A stretch of 64,000 bases of DNA from Flavobacteriales bacterium (GTDB lineage: Bacteria > Bacteroidota > Bacteroidia > Flavobacteriales_D > Sanyastnellaceae). Where the stretch lies: contig JAKVAX010000002.1 of NCBI GenBank assembly GCA_022447625.1, positions 186,001 to 250,000 on the forward strand. Direction: 5' to 3'. A program made the translations under genes and the position numbers. Of the stretch, positions 39,790 through 53,683 are shown one piece after another; positions within the stretch are counted from its first letter, which is position 1; each line of letters starts with the position of its first letter. The notes beneath the pieces are model-generated. The model saw nothing but the letters and a program-made list of their open reading frames with translations. It had not been told where the DNA came from and did no database searches.

Positions 39790-39857
39790 GACGAAAGGGG
39801 TTAGATGAGATTTGGGTGTAAAGGAAATTCCTTTTTCGACGATAACCTAGAAGGGGA

Positions 39858-39885
39858 ATCGATAATCGATAAACTATAATCTATA
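39858..39885. repeat. Period-7 array A, left inverted repeat of the DUF2199 segment
   Basis: Four consecutive heptads: ATCGATA, ATCGATA, AACTATA, ATCTATA. The 21 bases at 39868-39888 are the exact reverse complement of 40906-40926 on the other side of the DUF2199 gene. Confidence 0.8.
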
Positions 39886-39917
39886 ACTCTTTGGTAGCGG
39901 CATTATTGAGGTCACTA

Positions 39918-40769
39918 TTACCCAATGTTTTTCATCGTTTCGTCAATTCTCTTTTTCGCTTCTTTTTGTGAAATTCCATCGTAGTAATCTCTTACAAATG
40001 GATGGTCAAAATTCTGATGAGGAAAAATTTCAGGTCGACTATTCCCTTTCTTGGTCATGACATCACAGGGAATTGACATGGTGTCTCCATATTCTGGAAT
40101 GTTGTTGCATAACCAGCCAAAATACCCAGTTTCGTGATCCTCGTTATCGAAATTTGATTTGTAGTCTAAGTAACTGTTTTCGATTAACGATACCCAAAGT
40201 CCGTAGTCTAGGTTTTGGCAATTGTCGTTCACTTTTTGTGTGAGTGTGACCCTTATAAACCGGTCTACTTGGCCATCGTGACGAATTTCACAGAAGTCAG
40301 AGTTCAGTGTTCCGAGTTCAGACTTGTCTTGTTCGGTAAGGCAGTCATAGTTCGCTGGCGACTTGAAGGCTAAAGATGGCCAGTCTGAATGAGCTATTCC
40401 GCACTCGGTGCAATGAAAGTGGTTTTCATTTTCAGCTTTGCTGAACAATATCGTCTCGTTTCTTTCGAAAGGCGGTTGAGCTATGATTCCTTCCCAATTT
40501 TCTTCTATTTCAGGGAGTTCGCTCATTAATGCGTTTACAAAAAATCTCCATCCACTAAAGCTCTCCGTGAGAATTGCGAATTTACTTTGCGCTTCGATTT
40601 TCAGACAAATTTCATCGAAGGTCAATCTATCAATCTTGAATCCCGTTAGACAAGTGATTTCACTCCAATCGAAATGGGTGACAAGTCCATTATGATTGAT
40701 GACAAACCCGTTATCGGTTAATTCAACCGTTTCAATTTGAGTTTTCTTTTTCCATTTATTCCAGAACAT
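39918..40769 (-). CDS. DUF2199 protein with an extra N-terminal domain
   Basis: The ATG at 40769 gives 283 residues (open to a TTG at 40784). Residues about 1-115 form a small domain (DNGFVINHNGLVTHFDWSEI, LTFDEICLKIEAQSKF, ending QPPFERNETILF) that occurs as a stand-alone protein in Bacteroidota. Residues about 118-283 are a DUF2199 domain with the zinc-like CTECGIAHSDWPSLAF opening and GYFGWLCNNIPEY. Both families are often near toxin or defence loci, and I suspect an immunity-like role, but the sequence does not show it. The gene is AT-richer than its neighbours and is bracketed by an exact 21-bp inverted repeat, which hints at acquisition as a cassette. Confidence 0.75.
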   Translation of the reverse strand: MFWNKWKKKTQIETVELTDNGFVINHNGLVTHFDWSEITCLTGFKIDRLTFDEICLKIEAQSKFAILTESFSGWRFFVNALMSELPEIEENWEGIIAQPPFERNETILFSKAENENHFHCTECGIAHSDWPSLAFKSPANYDCLTEQDKSELGTLNSDFCEIRHDGQVDRFIRVTLTQKVNDNCQNLDYGLWVSLIENSYLDYKSNFDNEDHETGYFGWLCNNIPEYGDTMSIPCDVMTKKGNSRPEIFPHQNFDHPFVRDYYDGISQKEAKKRIDETMKNIG

Positions 40770-40905: not shown

Positions 40906-40940
40906 AGTTATAGATTATAGTTTATCAGTTATAGTTTAAG
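40906..40940. repeat. Period-7 array B, right inverted repeat of the DUF2199 segment
   Basis: Five heptads: AGTTATA, GATTATA, GTTTATC, AGTTATA, GTTTAAG. The first three are the inverted copy of array A. The array runs to within 6 bases of the superoxide dismutase stop codon. Confidence 0.8.
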
Positions 40941-41766: not shown

Positions 41767-41896
41767 GGCCGGCGTCAGCATCCGGCGTCCGGCGTCCGGC
41801 GTCCGTTTGGTTTCGGTCTTTTTGAACATGCATGTCATGTGCGGTTAATCCGCGTACGCCGTATTCCGGTTAACCCTCAGACGCCTGACGCCGGAA
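41767..41896. repeat. Period-7 arrays C and D in the SOD-AsmA gap
   Basis: 41767-41808 reads in heptads GGCCGGC, GTCAGCA, TCCGGCG three times, TCCGTTT. 41841-41896 reads GCGGTTA, ATCCGCG, TACGCCG, TATTCCG, GTTAACC, CTCAGAC, GCCTGAC, GCCGGAA. The end of D is close to the reverse complement of C (GGCGTCAGG against GGCGTCAGC), so the pair is loosely inverted about a 32-base spacer. Nothing else is seen in the 302-base gap 41711-42012. Confidence 0.7.
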
Positions 41897-42012
41897 GAAA
41901 ACAACAACAACCCCCAATTTACCGTTGAATAAACACCGCCTTGTTCAGAGCTTCTTCCTGCCGGGTATACGTCCAAGGTGTTTTGGCCTACTTTATGCAG
42001 TTCTATTGACGC

Positions 42013-47941: not shown

Positions 47942-48658
47942 CTATTCTTGACTGTACAACCATTCGTTGTAGAGGTCGAAGTAATTTTTTGATTCGATCA
48001 CCACGACACCACCTGTGGTATCTCCGTATTTCGCCGGAACCCCTCCTGTGTACACAGACACGGATCCAATTCCTGAGGCTGGGATACCACCGAAGTTTCC
48101 AGTGACTTTCATTCCATCAACAAAGGTGATCACCGTTCCAGCACGCGCTCCACGAAAGTGAAGTTCTTGTGTTGTTGGGTCAACGTACACCGCAGGCGTC
48201 ATCGTTGAGATGATTCCTTTGATATCACGCTTCACCGGGCTGTGCTCCAGTTCTTCTGAACGGATGGTTGCAATAGTGACACCGTCCCTTTCTATTAGGT
48301 CGTTTTGGAAAGCTTCAATAACTGCTTTGTCAATCATTACAGGGTTCTCGCCCATGGCTATCTTGTCCAGGAATGTGATTTTATCTGGATCGACCTTAAC
48401 TCCTGTAAGTACGTAGTTTGCCATTCCCACAAAAGAAACTTTAATTGTGTAAACACCTGAGTTCAGCGGTTTAAGCTTGAACTTACCGTCCAAATCTGTC
48501 GCAACACCGAACTGATTATCTCCAGCTTCCGCAACGACATAGGCATTAGGTAACGGTGTACCCAATTCATCTTTCACTGTTCCGTGGATTTCTCCCCACT
48601 GCTGTGCGCTGAGTGCTCCTGAAATCAAAAGCCCTAGCAGGATCAATAGATTTTTCAT
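47942..48658 (-). CDS. Carboxypeptidase-like/TonB-plug protein without a barrel
   Basis: A 238-residue protein. Signal peptide ending in GALSAQ (18); a CarboxypepD_reg-like domain (IHGTVKDELGTPLPNAYVVA, about 22-105); then a TonB receptor plug (VDPTTQELHFRGARAGTVIT, then FVDGMKVTGNFGGIPASGIG and GGVPAKYGDTTGGVVVIES) ending at residue 238 with YNEWLYSQE. There is no 22-strand barrel and no trace of one downstream in any frame, where the sigma factor follows after 33-51 bases. This is a complete small protein rather than a broken receptor. I infer a periplasmic sensor or adaptor that works with the sigma/TPR pair. Confidence 0.78.
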   Translation of the reverse strand: MKNLLILLGLLISGALSAQQWGEIHGTVKDELGTPLPNAYVVAEAGDNQFGVATDLDGKFKLKPLNSGVYTIKVSFVGMANYVLTGVKVDPDKITFLDKIAMGENPVMIDKAVIEAFQNDLIERDGVTIATIRSEELEHSPVKRDIKGIISTMTPAVYVDPTTQELHFRGARAGTVITFVDGMKVTGNFGGIPASGIGSVSVYTGGVPAKYGDTTGGVVVIESKNYFDLYNEWLYSQE

Positions 48659-48813: not shown

Positions 48814-48869
48814 GAATGTGGAATGTGGAATGTGGAATGAGGAATGCGGGTTACGGATCGCGGTGGGTG
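48814..48869. repeat. Period-7 array E
   Basis: Eight heptads in phase: GAATGTG three times, GAATGAG, GAATGCG, GGTTACG, GATCGCG, GTGGGTG. The first and last base of the unit stay G while the inner five drift. It is the first element of the 687-base gene-free stretch 48659-49345. Confidence 0.75.
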
Positions 48870-48870
48870 A

Positions 48871-49063
48871 GGCGCAAAATTGCGCCGCTAAAGGACCGGG
48901 TTCCCCTAAGAGGTAAATGTAGGGACGCATGAAATGCGTCCTCGACCGGGTTCTTCCTTAGCGGAGAGGTGCCCTTGAAACCATACGTTGGAGTTGGATG
49001 GATTTCATCCAGCCCTACAATGACGTCTGTTAGACGAGATGTTCAAGGCGTTTTCAAACGCCT
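48871..49063. repeat. Island of four short hairpins with a direct repeat
   Basis: Four perfect palindromes occur in under 200 bases: GGCGCAAAATTGCGCC (48871-48886), GGACGCAT-GAA-ATGCGTCC (48923-48941), TGGATG-GATTT-CATCCA (48995-49011), and AGGCGTTT-TC-AAACGCCT (49046-49063). The block GACCGGGTTC occurs twice 50 bases apart (48894 and 48944), and TGTAGGG (48918) is inverted as CCCTACA (49013). It looks like a mosaic of REP-like intergenic elements. No coding frame is convincing here. Confidence 0.7.
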
Positions 49064-49165: not shown

Positions 49166-49249
49166 AGTTATAGTTTATAGTCTATTGTTTATCGATTGCC
49201 CTAGTCCCTCGACCCTAGTCCCTCGACCCTCGTCTTTAGTCCCCGAGAT
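49166..49249. repeat. Period-7 array F, twelve heptads
   Basis: Reads in one unbroken phase: AGTTATA, GTTTATA, GTCTATT, GTTTATC, GATTGCC, CTAGTCC, CTCGACC, CTAGTCC, CTCGACC, CTCGTCT, TTAGTCC, CCGAGAT. The first part is the same family and orientation as array B at 40.9 kb; the second part is a different GC-rich family. It ends 97 bases before the start codon of the gliding-type giant. Confidence 0.8.
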
Positions 49250-49345: not shown

Positions 49346-52300
49346 ATGAAACGATTTGCTCTACTACTTATCCTGGCTTCGATCTCGGTGTCACTGTTTG
49401 CACACAACGGGAGAAAAGCTTTCAATTTCCGTGAAAACCTTGGCCAATGGCACGATAACGTGAAGTATCGTGTGGCGATGGGCAACGCTACGCTCTTCCT
49501 TGAAGAGAATGCGATGACGTGGAATATCGTTCACCCTGAAGATTACGACTTGATACATGAAAGCTCCGAATGGTCGCGCCAAGAACTGTTGGCCTGGCAA
49601 CTGCGCGGACATGCCTACAAGGTGATTTTCGAGAATGGGAATACACAGAACATTGTAGGGCAAGAGCAAGAAAGCACTTACTACAACTACTTCCTGGGCA
49701 ATGACCAATCGAAGTGGGCAAGTAATGTGCATGGTTTCAATGCGGTGCGCTACTCTCAAATCTGGGATGGTGTCGGCATGCGTATTTACAATTCTGCAGA
49801 TCAGTTGAAGTATGATTTTATCGTTAACGCTAACGCGGAAACGGATCAGGTTGTCTTGCGCTATGAAGGCCTAGAAGGAATGTCGATAGTAGACGGCGTT
49901 CTTTACCTCGAAACAAGCGTAGGTCAGATTACGGAGTTGGCACCTTACGCCTACCAAATGAATGGAAACTCTATGGAAGAAGTTGTCTGTGAATACGTGC
50001 TTTCAGGTGACAAGATTAGTTTTTCATTCCCTGAGGGATACGACACTTCACGGCAGTTGATCATTGACCCGATTGTCATTGCCTCAACGCTTTCTGGAAC
50101 GACAGGAGATAGCAACTACGGGCACAGTGCTGCCTATGATATTGCAGGGAACATTTACACTGGAGCTCGCGCTTTCGGTGCTGGTTACCCTACAACTACA
50201 GGGGCATATCAAGAAAATTTCGCTGGAGCAGGATTCGCGGTAGATATGGCGATGTCGAAGCTCAACCCAGAAGGAACAGACCTCCTATGGGCGAGCTACC
50301 TTGGAGGTACGGATACAGATTACCCACACTCGTTGATCGCTAATGATTTTGAGGAGCTGTACGTGTATGGTTCTACTTCGTCAAGTGATTTCCCAGTTTC
50401 AGACGACGCTTATCAACCAGATTACGGCGGAGGCACAGATATCGTAGTCTCTCACTTCTCTGCTGATGGTTCCGAACTGATCGGATCAACCTACATGGGT
50501 GGGTCAGACCAAGATGGTGTGAACGCCGCAAGTGTAAACTACGGTGATACCTACCGCGGTGAGATTGTACTTAACGGTGACCAAATCCCATACGTCGCAT
50601 CGTTCTCTACGTCAACGGATTTCCCAACAACAGGTGGTGTCTACCAGCCGGCCAATGCCGGGGAACAAGACGCGGTCATCTTTACGATGAACGAAGAACT
50701 GAGCTCACTTACTTGGTCGACATACTTAGGAGGTACGGCGGCGGATACAGGCTACGGTTTGCGTGTAACAGTTGATGGGAATGTCTTTGTTGCTGGTCAA
50801 GCTGGATCGGATGATTTCCCAACGACAGCAGGTGCCTACGAAACAACCTTCCAAGGTGGAGGTGGCGGAGGATGGGGTCCTGAAAAGGACGGATTCCTAG
50901 CACGTCTTTCTGCCAACGGAGCCGATCTTCAAGCATGTACTTTCTACGGAACAACAGAAGAAGATCAAGCATTCTTCGTAGACCTTGATAACGATGAAGA
51001 CCCCTTCATTTACGGACAGTCACAAGGAGATATTCCTGTAACCGGCAATGTTTACTCGGAGGAAGATGGCTCACTCTTCATCGCTAAATTTAACTTCGCC
51101 CTCACCGAGTTGCTCGCGGCTTCCCGTGTGGCTTTATCAACTTGGGGTGGTTATGCCGGGGTACCGGTAGCCTTCTTGGTTGATCGATGCGATAATATTT
51201 ATATCTCAGCTTACAGCGCGGGAACTGGCCTTTCATTGACTGATGACGCTGTGTACGATACGGGTGGTTTCTACCTCGCAGCTTATGGTGAGAATATCTC
51301 TACCCTAGAGTTTGCTTCATACTACGGAGCCAATCACGTAGATGGAGGAACTTCTCGATTCGATAAGAATGGAATCATCTACCAAGGGGTGTGTTCTGGA
51401 GGAGACTTCCCAACAAACGCTGACGCTTATGCGACCGGCCAGTCTATTGGTTGGGATATCGGTGTATTTAAAATGGACTTTCAGGTTTCTGGGGTCAATG
51501 CTGCCCTCACAGCAAGCGCTGATGCCTTGAATGGTTGTGCGCCGCACACGATCGAATTCAACAACTACTCAGTAGGTAACATCTTCACATGGGATTTCGG
51601 TGACGGATCTCCGTTGAACAACGAATTTGAGCCAGAGCACACGTACACAGAACCTGGGGTTTACGAAGTGAGTCTGATTTCTCTTGACTCATTGTCATGT
51701 AACCTAGCAGATACGGCGTACTTGGAAATCATGATCTCAGAGCCCACTGATTTCTTAGCGGCCTTCGAAGTACAGCTAGACTGTGAAGACCTGGGTATTG
51801 TTACGGATAATCAAACAGGAATTGAGTGGCTAGAATATCAATGGGACATGGGTGACGGAACCATCCTCGAAGGCTTTAATGTGGAGCACTTCTACGTTGA
51901 GGAAGGTGACTATACCATCACATTGAACGCAGTAGATAATGGTTGTGATGCAGATGATGAAGCGTCGCAAGATGTGCAGATTGTTGGCAGTGTTTTAGCC
52001 AGTACCGACGCGAGTTCCTATGAAGGGTGTGGTGAGCTCACCATTGACTTTGCGAACACCAGCAACGGATTGACCTATGAATGGGACTTTGGTGATGGTT
52101 CTCCAACGACCACAGATGAAAACCCAAGTCACACCTTCCAGCCAGGCGAATACACAGTGACGCTGACTGCTTTCCACCCAGAGAGCTGTAACCTCGAAGA
52201 TGACACCACTTTAACGGTTGTGGTGGGTCCAGATCAGATGATTGACGCGGCGTTCCAGCTGCTGCAAACTGATTGTGAATCATTCCTGGTAGAGGGAACA

Positions 52301-53683
52301 AACCAAAGTATTGGAGAATCCCTCGTATTTGAATGGGATATGGGTGATGGAACTATTTATGATATTCCAGACATCTCGCACAACTACGCGGCGATGGGTG
52401 AGTACCAAGTTTCATTAACGATCACAGATACATTGTGTGACGCTTCAGATACAGAAGTACTGAACATTACAGTGCTTGATGAGGTCACGGCCATCATCGG
52501 AAACGATGACCTTGAAGGATGTCATCCGTTCGTCGCCTTGTTTGAAAATAACAGTGCAGGAACGAACTTCTACTGGGACTTTGGTGACGGCTCACCTGTG
52601 GTTGATACTCAATTGGCAGAGCATGAATACGCAGAGCCAGGTGTATATACCGTGACGCTCACTGTAGAAGGCGTTGGAAACTGTGGAGGTACAGATGTTA
52701 CCGAAGCCATTGTAACGGTGGTGGAAACGCCGGAGATCGAAGCCCTGTTCGAGATGGAACAAACGGGTGCGTGTGAAGCTATGACGGTTGACTTCGACAA
52801 CCTAAGTACAGGCGATGGCCTAGAATATGATTGGTCAGTTGACGGCACAACCTATTCGGTAGCTGAAATGGAACACATATTCAGTGGACCTGGAACCTAC
52901 GATATCGTCTTGAATATCACGGAACCAGTGTGTGATGCAACGGATAGCTTTAGCCAAACAATTGAAGTGCTTGACGGCATCGATTTGATTGCTCCTAATG
53001 ATGTGTACATGTGCTACTATGAATTCACTGAAGACATCGCTATTACTGGTCCGGCTGAAGCAGCATACGAGTGGAACACTGGAGAAACAGAACAAGCAAT
53101 CACCATTACTGAACCAGGAATTTACACGGTTACAGCCACGTTGAATAACTGTACTGACTCCGAAGGATTGGAGGTGATTGGGGTAGAGAAATTGATCTTG
53201 CTAGACAATCCAACGGCTTGTGAAGGCATTCAGACCATGCTCGAAATCCCATATGACAACGGTACAAATTACCAGTGGTGTGACGGCTCAGAGCTAGATT
53301 ACATCTATGCGTCAGACCCAGGCGAGTACTGCTACCAGTTCACGGATATTTTCGGATGTCAACAAGAGGGGCTAGTGATTTTAGATCAAGTTGATCAAGA
53401 CGGTGCTCTCTATATTCCAAATGCGTTCACACCGAACAACGATGGAATTAATGACGTCTTCAAAGCAGAGGGAGTAGATATTCGTTCATTTGAATTGTCT
53501 GTGTGGAACCGGTGGGGAGAAGAGGTGTATCGTTCAGAATCGATTGATCAATTCTGGGATGGATCATACCATGGAAGCGAATACTACGTGCAAGACGGAG
53601 TCTATACTTGGCGTGTAGAATACAACAGCACTTGTAGTTCAGAAAAAGTATTGGAAATGGGCACTGTGCTCATCATGCGATGA
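49346..53683 (+). CDS. Giant SBBP/PKD surface protein with T9SS type B (gliding-type) sorting domain
   Basis: The ATG at 49346 starts a signal peptide (KRFALLLILASISVSLFA) and 1445 residues; an upstream TTG at 49307 only adds leader noise. Residues about 20-240 are the DUF7948 domain (FRENLGQWHDNVKYRVAMGN). SBBP-type propeller repeats follow to about 700 (DLLWASYLGGTDTDYPHSL, SLTWSTYLGGTAADTGYG). Six PKD domains occupy about 720-1230 (WDFGDGSP or WDMGDGT cores with HTY/HEY...PGVYTVTL ends). The C terminus is a gliding-motility type B sorting domain (IPNAFTPNNDGINDVFKAEG, WNRWGEEVY, DGVYTWRVEY). It is exported by T9SS and may act in adhesion or gliding. The stop directly abuts the convergent EnvC-like gene. 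Motif copy 10 is at 49826. Confidence 0.9.
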   Translation: MKRFALLLILASISVSLFAHNGRKAFNFRENLGQWHDNVKYRVAMGNATLFLEENAMTWNIVHPEDYDLIHESSEWSRQELLAWQLRGHAYKVIFENGNTQNIVGQEQESTYYNYFLGNDQSKWASNVHGFNAVRYSQIWDGVGMRIYNSADQLKYDFIVNANAETDQVVLRYEGLEGMSIVDGVLYLETSVGQITELAPYAYQMNGNSMEEVVCEYVLSGDKISFSFPEGYDTSRQLIIDPIVIASTLSGTTGDSNYGHSAAYDIAGNIYTGARAFGAGYPTTTGAYQENFAGAGFAVDMAMSKLNPEGTDLLWASYLGGTDTDYPHSLIANDFEELYVYGSTSSSDFPVSDDAYQPDYGGGTDIVVSHFSADGSELIGSTYMGGSDQDGVNAASVNYGDTYRGEIVLNGDQIPYVASFSTSTDFPTTGGVYQPANAGEQDAVIFTMNEELSSLTWSTYLGGTAADTGYGLRVTVDGNVFVAGQAGSDDFPTTAGAYETTFQGGGGGGWGPEKDGFLARLSANGADLQACTFYGTTEEDQAFFVDLDNDEDPFIYGQSQGDIPVTGNVYSEEDGSLFIAKFNFALTELLAASRVALSTWGGYAGVPVAFLVDRCDNIYISAYSAGTGLSLTDDAVYDTGGFYLAAYGENISTLEFASYYGANHVDGGTSRFDKNGIIYQGVCSGGDFPTNADAYATGQSIGWDIGVFKMDFQVSGVNAALTASADALNGCAPHTIEFNNYSVGNIFTWDFGDGSPLNNEFEPEHTYTEPGVYEVSLISLDSLSCNLADTAYLEIMISEPTDFLAAFEVQLDCEDLGIVTDNQTGIEWLEYQWDMGDGTILEGFNVEHFYVEEGDYTITLNAVDNGCDADDEASQDVQIVGSVLASTDASSYEGCGELTIDFANTSNGLTYEWDFGDGSPTTTDENPSHTFQPGEYTVTLTAFHPESCNLEDDTTLTVVVGPDQMIDAAFQLLQTDCESFLVEGTNQSIGESLVFEWDMGDGTIYDIPDISHNYAAMGEYQVSLTITDTLCDASDTEVLNITVLDEVTAIIGNDDLEGCHPFVALFENNSAGTNFYWDFGDGSPVVDTQLAEHEYAEPGVYTVTLTVEGVGNCGGTDVTEAIVTVVETPEIEALFEMEQTGACEAMTVDFDNLSTGDGLEYDWSVDGTTYSVAEMEHIFSGPGTYDIVLNITEPVCDATDSFSQTIEVLDGIDLIAPNDVYMCYYEFTEDIAITGPAEAAYEWNTGETEQAITITEPGIYTVTATLNNCTDSEGLEVIGVEKLILLDNPTACEGIQTMLEIPYDNGTNYQWCDGSELDYIYASDPGEYCYQFTDIFGCQQEGLVILDQVDQDGALYIPNAFTPNNDGINDVFKAEGVDIRSFELSVWNRWGEEVYRSESIDQFWDGSYHGSEYYVQDGVYTWRVEYNSTCSSEKVLEMGTVLIMR
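49826..49840 (-). repeat. Dispersed 15-bp motif, copy 10
   Basis: On the plus strand AACGCTAACGCGGAA, giving 13 of 15 matches on the minus strand. It is read in this plus-strand gene as Asn-Ala-Asn-Ala-Glu, so relative to transcription it has the same orientation as copies 1-6. Confidence 0.65.

Follow-up and report, generated by a model that had tools for sequence, protein, structure and literature searches.

Heptameric arrays of changing unit sequence between genes of a Flavobacteriales bacterium and its sister species

Described heptamer repeats and the array studied here

Heptamers are reported to be the commonest class of long repeats in bacteria, and polymerase slippage has been offered as the reason for the unit length of 7 (PMC4679880, PMC4692102); the first of these articles relays the slippage idea together with a finding of Mrazek 2007, by which heptanucleotides form the most frequent class in the majority of genomes. 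Direct repeats of the heptamer TAACTGA were described in Beggiatoaceae, Cyanobacteria and Bacteroidetes (MacGregor 2015, PMC4679880), in an article that also reports larger heptamer-repeat assemblages in Elizabethkingia, heptamers other than TAACTGA in Gramella forsetii and A. sublithincola, and close relatives with shorter intergenic regions without obvious repeats. The heptamers GGGNATC and GGGGAYT of Xanthomonas and Nostoc are G-rich and quadruplex-forming (Rehm 2015, PMC4692102, where a Calothrix STRR case is also cited). Further described systems are prokaryote satellites derived from heptamers, such as (GATAGRA)n in Chloroflexus (PMC6749651), and REP/BIME, the bacterial interspersed mosaic elements (PMC3733652), while the available part of PMC4060949 adds nothing on heptamers.

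The arrays studied here resemble the TAACTGA repeats in being heptameric, intergenic and patchy among lineages; they differ by forming several degenerate families instead of one strict unit, and by not being concentrated just upstream of start codons. Three tandem copies of TAACTGA were found in none of five genomes, and tandem pairs were absent from 684 kb of the genome holding our locus (G000) and 1.285 Mb of its sister species (G002). With the G-rich repeats they share degenerate heptads with fixed and free positions, intergenic placement, and variation of length and sequence at orthologous sites, but in contrast to those quadruplex units many families occur here; GGGAATC, GGGGATT and GGGGACT, in these forms, yielded no tandem pair in the same 684 kb and 1.285 Mb, and neither did GATAGRA. 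Heptamer units are scattered through the genome as in Chloroflexus, whereas a single unit is described there. The likeness to REP/BIME lies in dispersed extragenic mosaics of short modules with palindromes, although the modules here are mainly heptad arrays. Heptamer assemblages in Bacteroidetes have already been published, and what looks new here is the multi-family mosaic form. No description of ordered multi-family heptad mosaics was found at the level of titles and abstract beginnings, in a coverage outside which most subscription journals fall, and this absence is weak evidence of novelty.

The locus lies in a window of 64,000 nucleotides, bases 186001-250000 of contig C12 of G000, which is a 3.9 Mb draft in 76 contigs. 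An earlier note had described a period-7 array at 49166-49249, and the array is real: at 49168-49241 it reaches a lag-7 score of 24.1, above all 2000 first-order shuffles of its own 84 bases (best 18.5), and 2000 shuffles of the 687-bp intergenic region gave a best score of 11.3. At other lags from 4 to 15 the region scores at most 6.5, except for the harmonic lag 14 (18.7). The array reads TTATAGT, TTATAGT, CTATTGT, TTATCGA, TTGCCCT, AGTCCCT, CGACCCT, AGTCCCT, CGACCCT, CGTCTTT and AGTC. Chance or an assembly artefact might be suspected from the draft state of the 76-contig assembly, in which several arrays lie near contig ends, but with no shuffle out of 2000 reaching the score, and with an ortholog in the single-contig genome of G002 that already refutes it, this explanation is practically negligible.

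The genes on both sides of the array are divergent (Table 1). A 100-aa ORF over the array in the first greedy gene calls was dropped by the codon model and is taken as spurious; protein coding was rejected for the arrays generally, which lie mostly between genes and run in sevens. Helical phasing was likewise rejected as the cause of the period, 7 bases being no helical repeat of DNA. Rfam gave two tRNAs across the window and nothing else, a search of the plasmid collection with the array gave no match, and predicted folds near the array are weak (raw energies of -14.0 and -26.8 for 120 nt). The site shows no sign of a function.

Table 1. Features of the window (positions within the window; scores are lag-7 scores; gene limits are codon-model calls)
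Feature	Positions	Strand	Score or remark
Family B array (AATCGAT / reverse TTATCGA)	39857-39886	-	14.9
Period-7 stretch within DUF2199 gene, exception to intergenic placement	40291-40325		13.3
Family B array (TTATAGT)	40908-40938	+	9.9
Family G array (CCGGCGT), N-terminal extension or 5' region of superoxide dismutase ORF	41776-41805	+	16.3
Weak degenerate period-7 stretch	41853-41897		8.6
Gene for protein with carboxypeptidase-regulatory-like domain and TonB plug	47942-48658	-	neighbour of focal array
Family D array (GAATGTG to GATCGCG), sharing the divergent intergenic region of the focal array	48814-48863	+	24.3; longer and split in two in G002
Palindrome GGCGCAAAATTGCGCC, opens dispersed repeat adjoining the D array	48871-48886		
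AT-rich heptads of focal array, family B (TTATMGW), with bridge TTGCC	49168-49200	+	first 32 array bases identical in G002 ortholog (L070)
GC-rich heptads of focal array, five family A (CTMGWCY) units and a sixth, TTAGTCC	49201-49242	+	four in G002 ortholog
Gene for 1445-aa PKD-domain protein with type IX secretion signal	49346-53683	+	neighbour of focal array

Number of period-7 arrays and their spread among relatives

Regarding the five other arrays named in the earlier note, those beginning at 39857, 40908, 41776 and 48814 are clear, whereas the one near 41841 is weak. That such arrays always lie between genes proved too strict, given the stretch inside the DUF2199 gene and the array at 41776-41805 inside the longest superoxide dismutase ORF, where it precedes both the domain and the start chosen by the codon model. 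Next to the D array, a dispersed repeat at 48871-48941 consists of the palindromes GGCGCAAAATTGCGCC and TAGGGACGCATGAAATGCGTCC joined by GCTAAAGGACC; some copies of it in G002 carry a second hairpin (CCCGAAGNNCGGG) within the first palindrome.

For a wider survey, lag-7 segments scoring at least 10 were counted as arrays. Counts refer to 684 kb of the 3.9 Mb of G000 (contigs with hits; 40 kb of C23 taken for hits) and to 1.285 Mb of the 4.1 Mb of G002, with 10 kb masked (two stretches chosen by synteny, one from the contig start). G002 is a sister species about 92% identical to G000 and largely syntenic with it over the compared stretches. G000 holds 47 lag-7 arrays in 279 intergenic regions (60,545 bp) and five in genes, compared with a mean of 0.7 and a maximum of 2 in 20 runs of first-order Markov shuffling. 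Other lags from 4 to 20 gave 0-10 arrays, except the harmonic 14 (24 arrays), and lag 21 gave 17. In G002 we found 131 arrays in 540 intergenic regions (118,168 bp), with a shuffled mean of 1.95, six arrays in genes, and 0-19 arrays at the other lags from 4 to 20 except 14 (107 arrays). By these counts the intergenic lag-7 excess that had been predicted is present, and the outcome named as refuting it, no such excess in other intergenic regions of the same genome, did not come true. The raw peak, however, is less sharp than predicted: over all intergenic bases the autocorrelation is 0.2728 at lag 7, 0.2644 at lag 6 and 0.2605 at lag 8, and lags 9 and 21 rival lag 7 (0.2716 and 0.2729, with a cruder gene mask). 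The averaged lag-7 peak is weak; the arrays are a small share of intergenic DNA.

The congener G001 contains 25 period-8 versus 14 period-7 arrays in 116 regions (32,848 bp). At its loci L110 and L113, period-8 arrays of type TTTCCCGG occur alongside period-7 ones, e.g. CGATCCC. Small samples of further relatives showed arrays in G013, partly chosen for its hit, and in G032, and none at score 10 in G007 (40 kb), G008 (20 kb) and six loci from named MAGs. In G013, a member of another genus of the bacterial family, long one-heptad arrays with a two-state part extend up to about 55 units (L030/L117, L118 and L119; heptads TAGTCAC / TAGTCGT and GACTAGT / GACTAAC), three cases being located at contig ends. 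A strict four-unit pattern of family A (CTMGWCY) was found in 6 of 114 genomes of the bacterial family, representing 4 of 21 genera, and its reversed control in none of the 114. It occurs at 23 places in G000 and 43 in G002, four genomes from other genera carry it at one to three places apiece, and it is absent from the congener G001. As a rough estimate, a heptad array has a chance of about 1 in 150 of fitting A in some rotation and strand, so that the few A arrays in other genera may or may not share ancestry. The four-unit pattern of family E (GTRGACN) was present only in G000 (88 places) and G002 (228), with three places for its reversed control, in G078 (overlapping places counted in each case).

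Families, register and change between the two species

About eight degenerate heptad families were named by eye: A CTMGWCY, B TTATMGW, C TTRGTYN, D GYGGAWY, E GTRGACN, F TADGGCN, G GTCCGGC and H GTTCGTR. Family J (AATTCAT) matched too loosely, and its rows were left out of the counts. A universal N-Y-N-G-W core behind all families was dropped, since with seven rotations and two strands it fits almost any heptad.

The earlier note considered family switching within one array unusual, but family change along the array is the rule here: the ends are unlike (consensuses at most 3/7 alike) in 67 of 87 arrays with at least eight units (19/22 in G000, 48/65 in G002), a count that is partly inflated because the lag-7 rule fuses neighbouring arrays. 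Cyanobacterial STRRs are tandem heptanucleotides, and the likeness to them that had been pointed out holds at the level of unit length. The arrays are above chance, mainly intergenic and variable in copy number by whole units, as in bacterial heptameric STRRs and long simple repeats, but they do not keep one unit sequence per array; because of the unlike ends we file them as a variant of the heptameric STRR class, the criterion being our own reading.

Families follow each other in a preferred order. B stands before A in 19 cases and A before B in 5 (G000/G002 8/11 and 2/3), and the order is uniform for C before A (8:0; 3/5), C before B (6:0; 2/4) and D before C (5:0; 0/5), in counts that add 18 hit-bearing pieces and include orthologs of both genomes. 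The claim that the families change without loss of register did not survive for the focal junction type; lag 7 alone is no test of it. With the G of TTATMGW and the G of CTMGWCY as marks, the B-A junction of the focal array is 3 bases out of phase (offset 5, both here and in the G002 ortholog), and the 19 B-A copies show all seven offsets: offset 2 eight times, 3 and 6 three times each, 5 twice, and 0, 1 and 4 once each. Offset 2, at which the G is in phase, lies above 1/7 (p 0.003). Phase is thus free at the focal junction type and kept at others, being fixed in 5/5 D-C (all in G002), 6/6 C-B and 7/8 C-A junctions and mostly so in A-B (4/5). This fixed phase at D-C, C-B and C-A needs shared ancestry or in-phase drift.

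On a larger scale, a composite block recurs at four distinct places in G002, all in a 560 kb piece, and at one in G000. Its parts, some of which are missing at times, run from D/E through spacer hairpins, H and a stretch rich in AATCATT to inverted E or D and then inverted F. At the G002 loci L107 (6700-18970) and L105 (11324-11575), a recurring mosaic block has inverted heptad arrays on both sides of conserved spacer hairpins, GTTGCGC/GCGCAAC and AGATTGCCC/GGGCAATCT. In G002 there are also four tandem copies of an intergenic unit of about 305-330 bp (L033, 1617-2720), and every copy carries E, G and D heptad arrays whose lengths differ from copy to copy.

Comparison of orthologous sites showed steps of whole units. 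The GC-rich part of the focal array is exactly 14 bp, i.e. two heptads, shorter in G002, the D array beside it grew and was interrupted there, and next to a tRNA-His gene a D array of 4 units in G000 corresponds to one of 11 units in G002. Two syntenic stretches of 330 and 325 kb (644 kb of letters) were aligned between the genomes. Substitutions amount to 14.6% in array columns, compared with 7.4% in coding columns and 6.6% in the remaining intergenic ones, and part of the array excess may be misalignment. Gaps are eight times denser in arrays: 68 lie within or next to arrays (2,224 array columns) and 176 in the remaining intergenic DNA (45,996 columns). When gaps shorter than 4 bp are set aside, a length divisible by 7 is found for 15 of 43 array gaps and for 7 of 46 others (Fisher p 0.048, marginal). 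Identity within arrays falls with distance, in G000 from 0.67 at lag 7 through 0.55 (14), 0.48 (21), 0.39 (28) and 0.35 (35) to 0.29 (70), and in G002 from 0.71 down to 0.31, the lag-7 values being inflated by selection of the segments on lag 7; neighbouring units are the most alike, as local duplication gives. Of 48 arrays in the syntenic stretches of G000, 30 aligned over at least 80% of their length, one over half and 17 under 20%, although 8 of these 17 lie outside the covered G002 counterpart and are not evidence of absence. Among 17 breaks of synteny that were inspected between the two genomes, seven include array bases on the side of one genome or both, but none is a clean array insertion, so there is no empty site that would define the end of an element.

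We put a probability of about two in three on the reading that many intergenic heptameric satellites, among them the focal array, occur in this genus and change by 7-bp mutational steps within dispersed mosaic blocks copied between sites. Replication slippage or unequal exchange would add and remove units, and out-of-phase slippage between adjacent units would shuffle the variable positions, of which each unit has two or three. Ectopic conversion or a mobile element would carry the blocks from one intergenic site to another; if nearly neutral, the blocks would survive best where no promoter is disturbed. The period would persist since the mutational step is one unit, and not through selection on spacing. 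An earlier suggestion, a process conserving spacing rather than sequence, is borne out in so far as arrays can lengthen and shorten by 7-bp steps and so keep their spacing; yet with free phase at the focal junction and a congener of mostly period 8, 7 is not a protected spacing.

Against a slippage satellite, 28 of the 43 longer array gaps are not multiples of 7, the excess of multiples is marginal, the averaged lag-7 peak is weak, and three junction types keep their phase. In a crude simulation of slippage and point mutation at four mutation rates, the lowest rate gave unlike ends in 4 of 20 long arrays and the next in 1 of 3, while at the two higher rates no array was long enough; most arrays died, with 34, 23, 7 and 4 survivors out of 150, and 11 out of 300 in a previous run. 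Compared with the real arrays, slippage alone does not explain the mosaic, which is a gap in the explanation and not proof of another process. No carrier of the mosaics was found. G000, G001 and G002 have one Y1 transposase match each, that of G002 being weak (E 3e-4); in its surroundings G001 has one array (19.4), G002 a palindrome and a weak stretch (8.0), and G000 no array scoring at least 10.

Placement by gene orientation and what the arrays may be

Regarding the orientation of the neighboring genes (codon-model calls), arrays were found in 8/35 convergent, 15/195 tandem and 5/60 divergent regions in G000, and in 21/65, 33/376 and 14/130, respectively, in G002. Convergent regions are enriched over the rest in both species (8/35 vs 20/255, p 0.011 in G000; 21/65 vs 47/506, p 2e-6 in G002), and among regions of 120-600 bp the fractions are 8/17 convergent, 12/86 tandem and 4/36 divergent in G000 and 14/27, 23/148 and 12/80 in G002. 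In tandem regions 54 of 85 arrays are nearer to the upstream stop. Within convergent regions the blocks, several of which may belong to one region, are sense to the nearer gene in 15/17 cases for F, 9/10 for H, 19/29 for E and 2/15 for A. Counted by distinct region halves, sense:antisense in G000 and G002 is 4:0 and 11:2 for F, 1:0 and 8:1 for H, 1:3 and 1:8 for A, and 2:3 and 15:6 for E. When every neighbouring gene within 400 bp is counted, all families come out nearly balanced between sense and antisense. The polar order together with the mirror-image orientation in convergent regions hints at selection or element structure.

Some convergent regions contain inverted E arrays flanking a spacer, with long predicted hairpins. 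A possible though unlikely explanation is worth setting out, in which inverted arrays of one family (GTGGAC... to ...GTCCAC) around conserved spacers would act as terminators or insulators, folding and stopping transcription from both sides, so that heptads would be kept for pairing and not for their letters. The excess between convergent genes is in line with such a role, and so are the repeated spacer-hairpin block at its four places in G002 and one in G000, and pairs of E+ followed by E-, which occur six times within 300 bp, with the reverse order not among the 60 commonest pairs listed. Predicted RNA folds in three hand-chosen regions have raw energies of -78.3 kcal/mol over 100 nt at L071 14916-15015, -110.7 at L105 11321-11575 and -115.2 at L107 18651-18975. 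The convergent excess would, however, also be given by plain tolerance outside promoters, the even sense and antisense balance over all neighbours within 400 bp argues against it, and the focal array itself lies between divergent genes, where its predicted folds are weak.

The placement bears also on the idea that each heptad is the footprint of a protein, the 7-base spacing being kept and the letters tolerated. Cold-shock or S1 proteins were proposed to bind the TAACTGA repeats (PMC4679880), and some positions hardly vary within families such as CTMGWCY and TTATMGW. Binding sites are nevertheless very improbable, as the families differ widely in their letters, the congener has mostly period 8, phase is free at the focal junction type, and enrichment is found between convergent genes instead of upstream of genes, with the tandem arrays tending towards the upstream stop.

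A more far-reaching reading, which we regard as doubtful, is that the heptad families would be modules of one polar, dispersed, intergenic mosaic element whose inverted arms in convergent regions serve as length-tuned bidirectional terminators. In such an element the order (GTGGAC or GCGGAT)-TTGGTT-TTATCG-CTAGAC would be inherited, while unit number and free positions would churn by 7-bp steps. If true, satellites would be the building material of a mosaic element in bacteria that keeps the pairing frame and not the letters. Two close species with orthologous heptads of many families and a third with mostly octads provide a natural test of how a repeat length is chosen, and the contrast between G000, G002 and G001 also tests how satellites change their sequence without dying.
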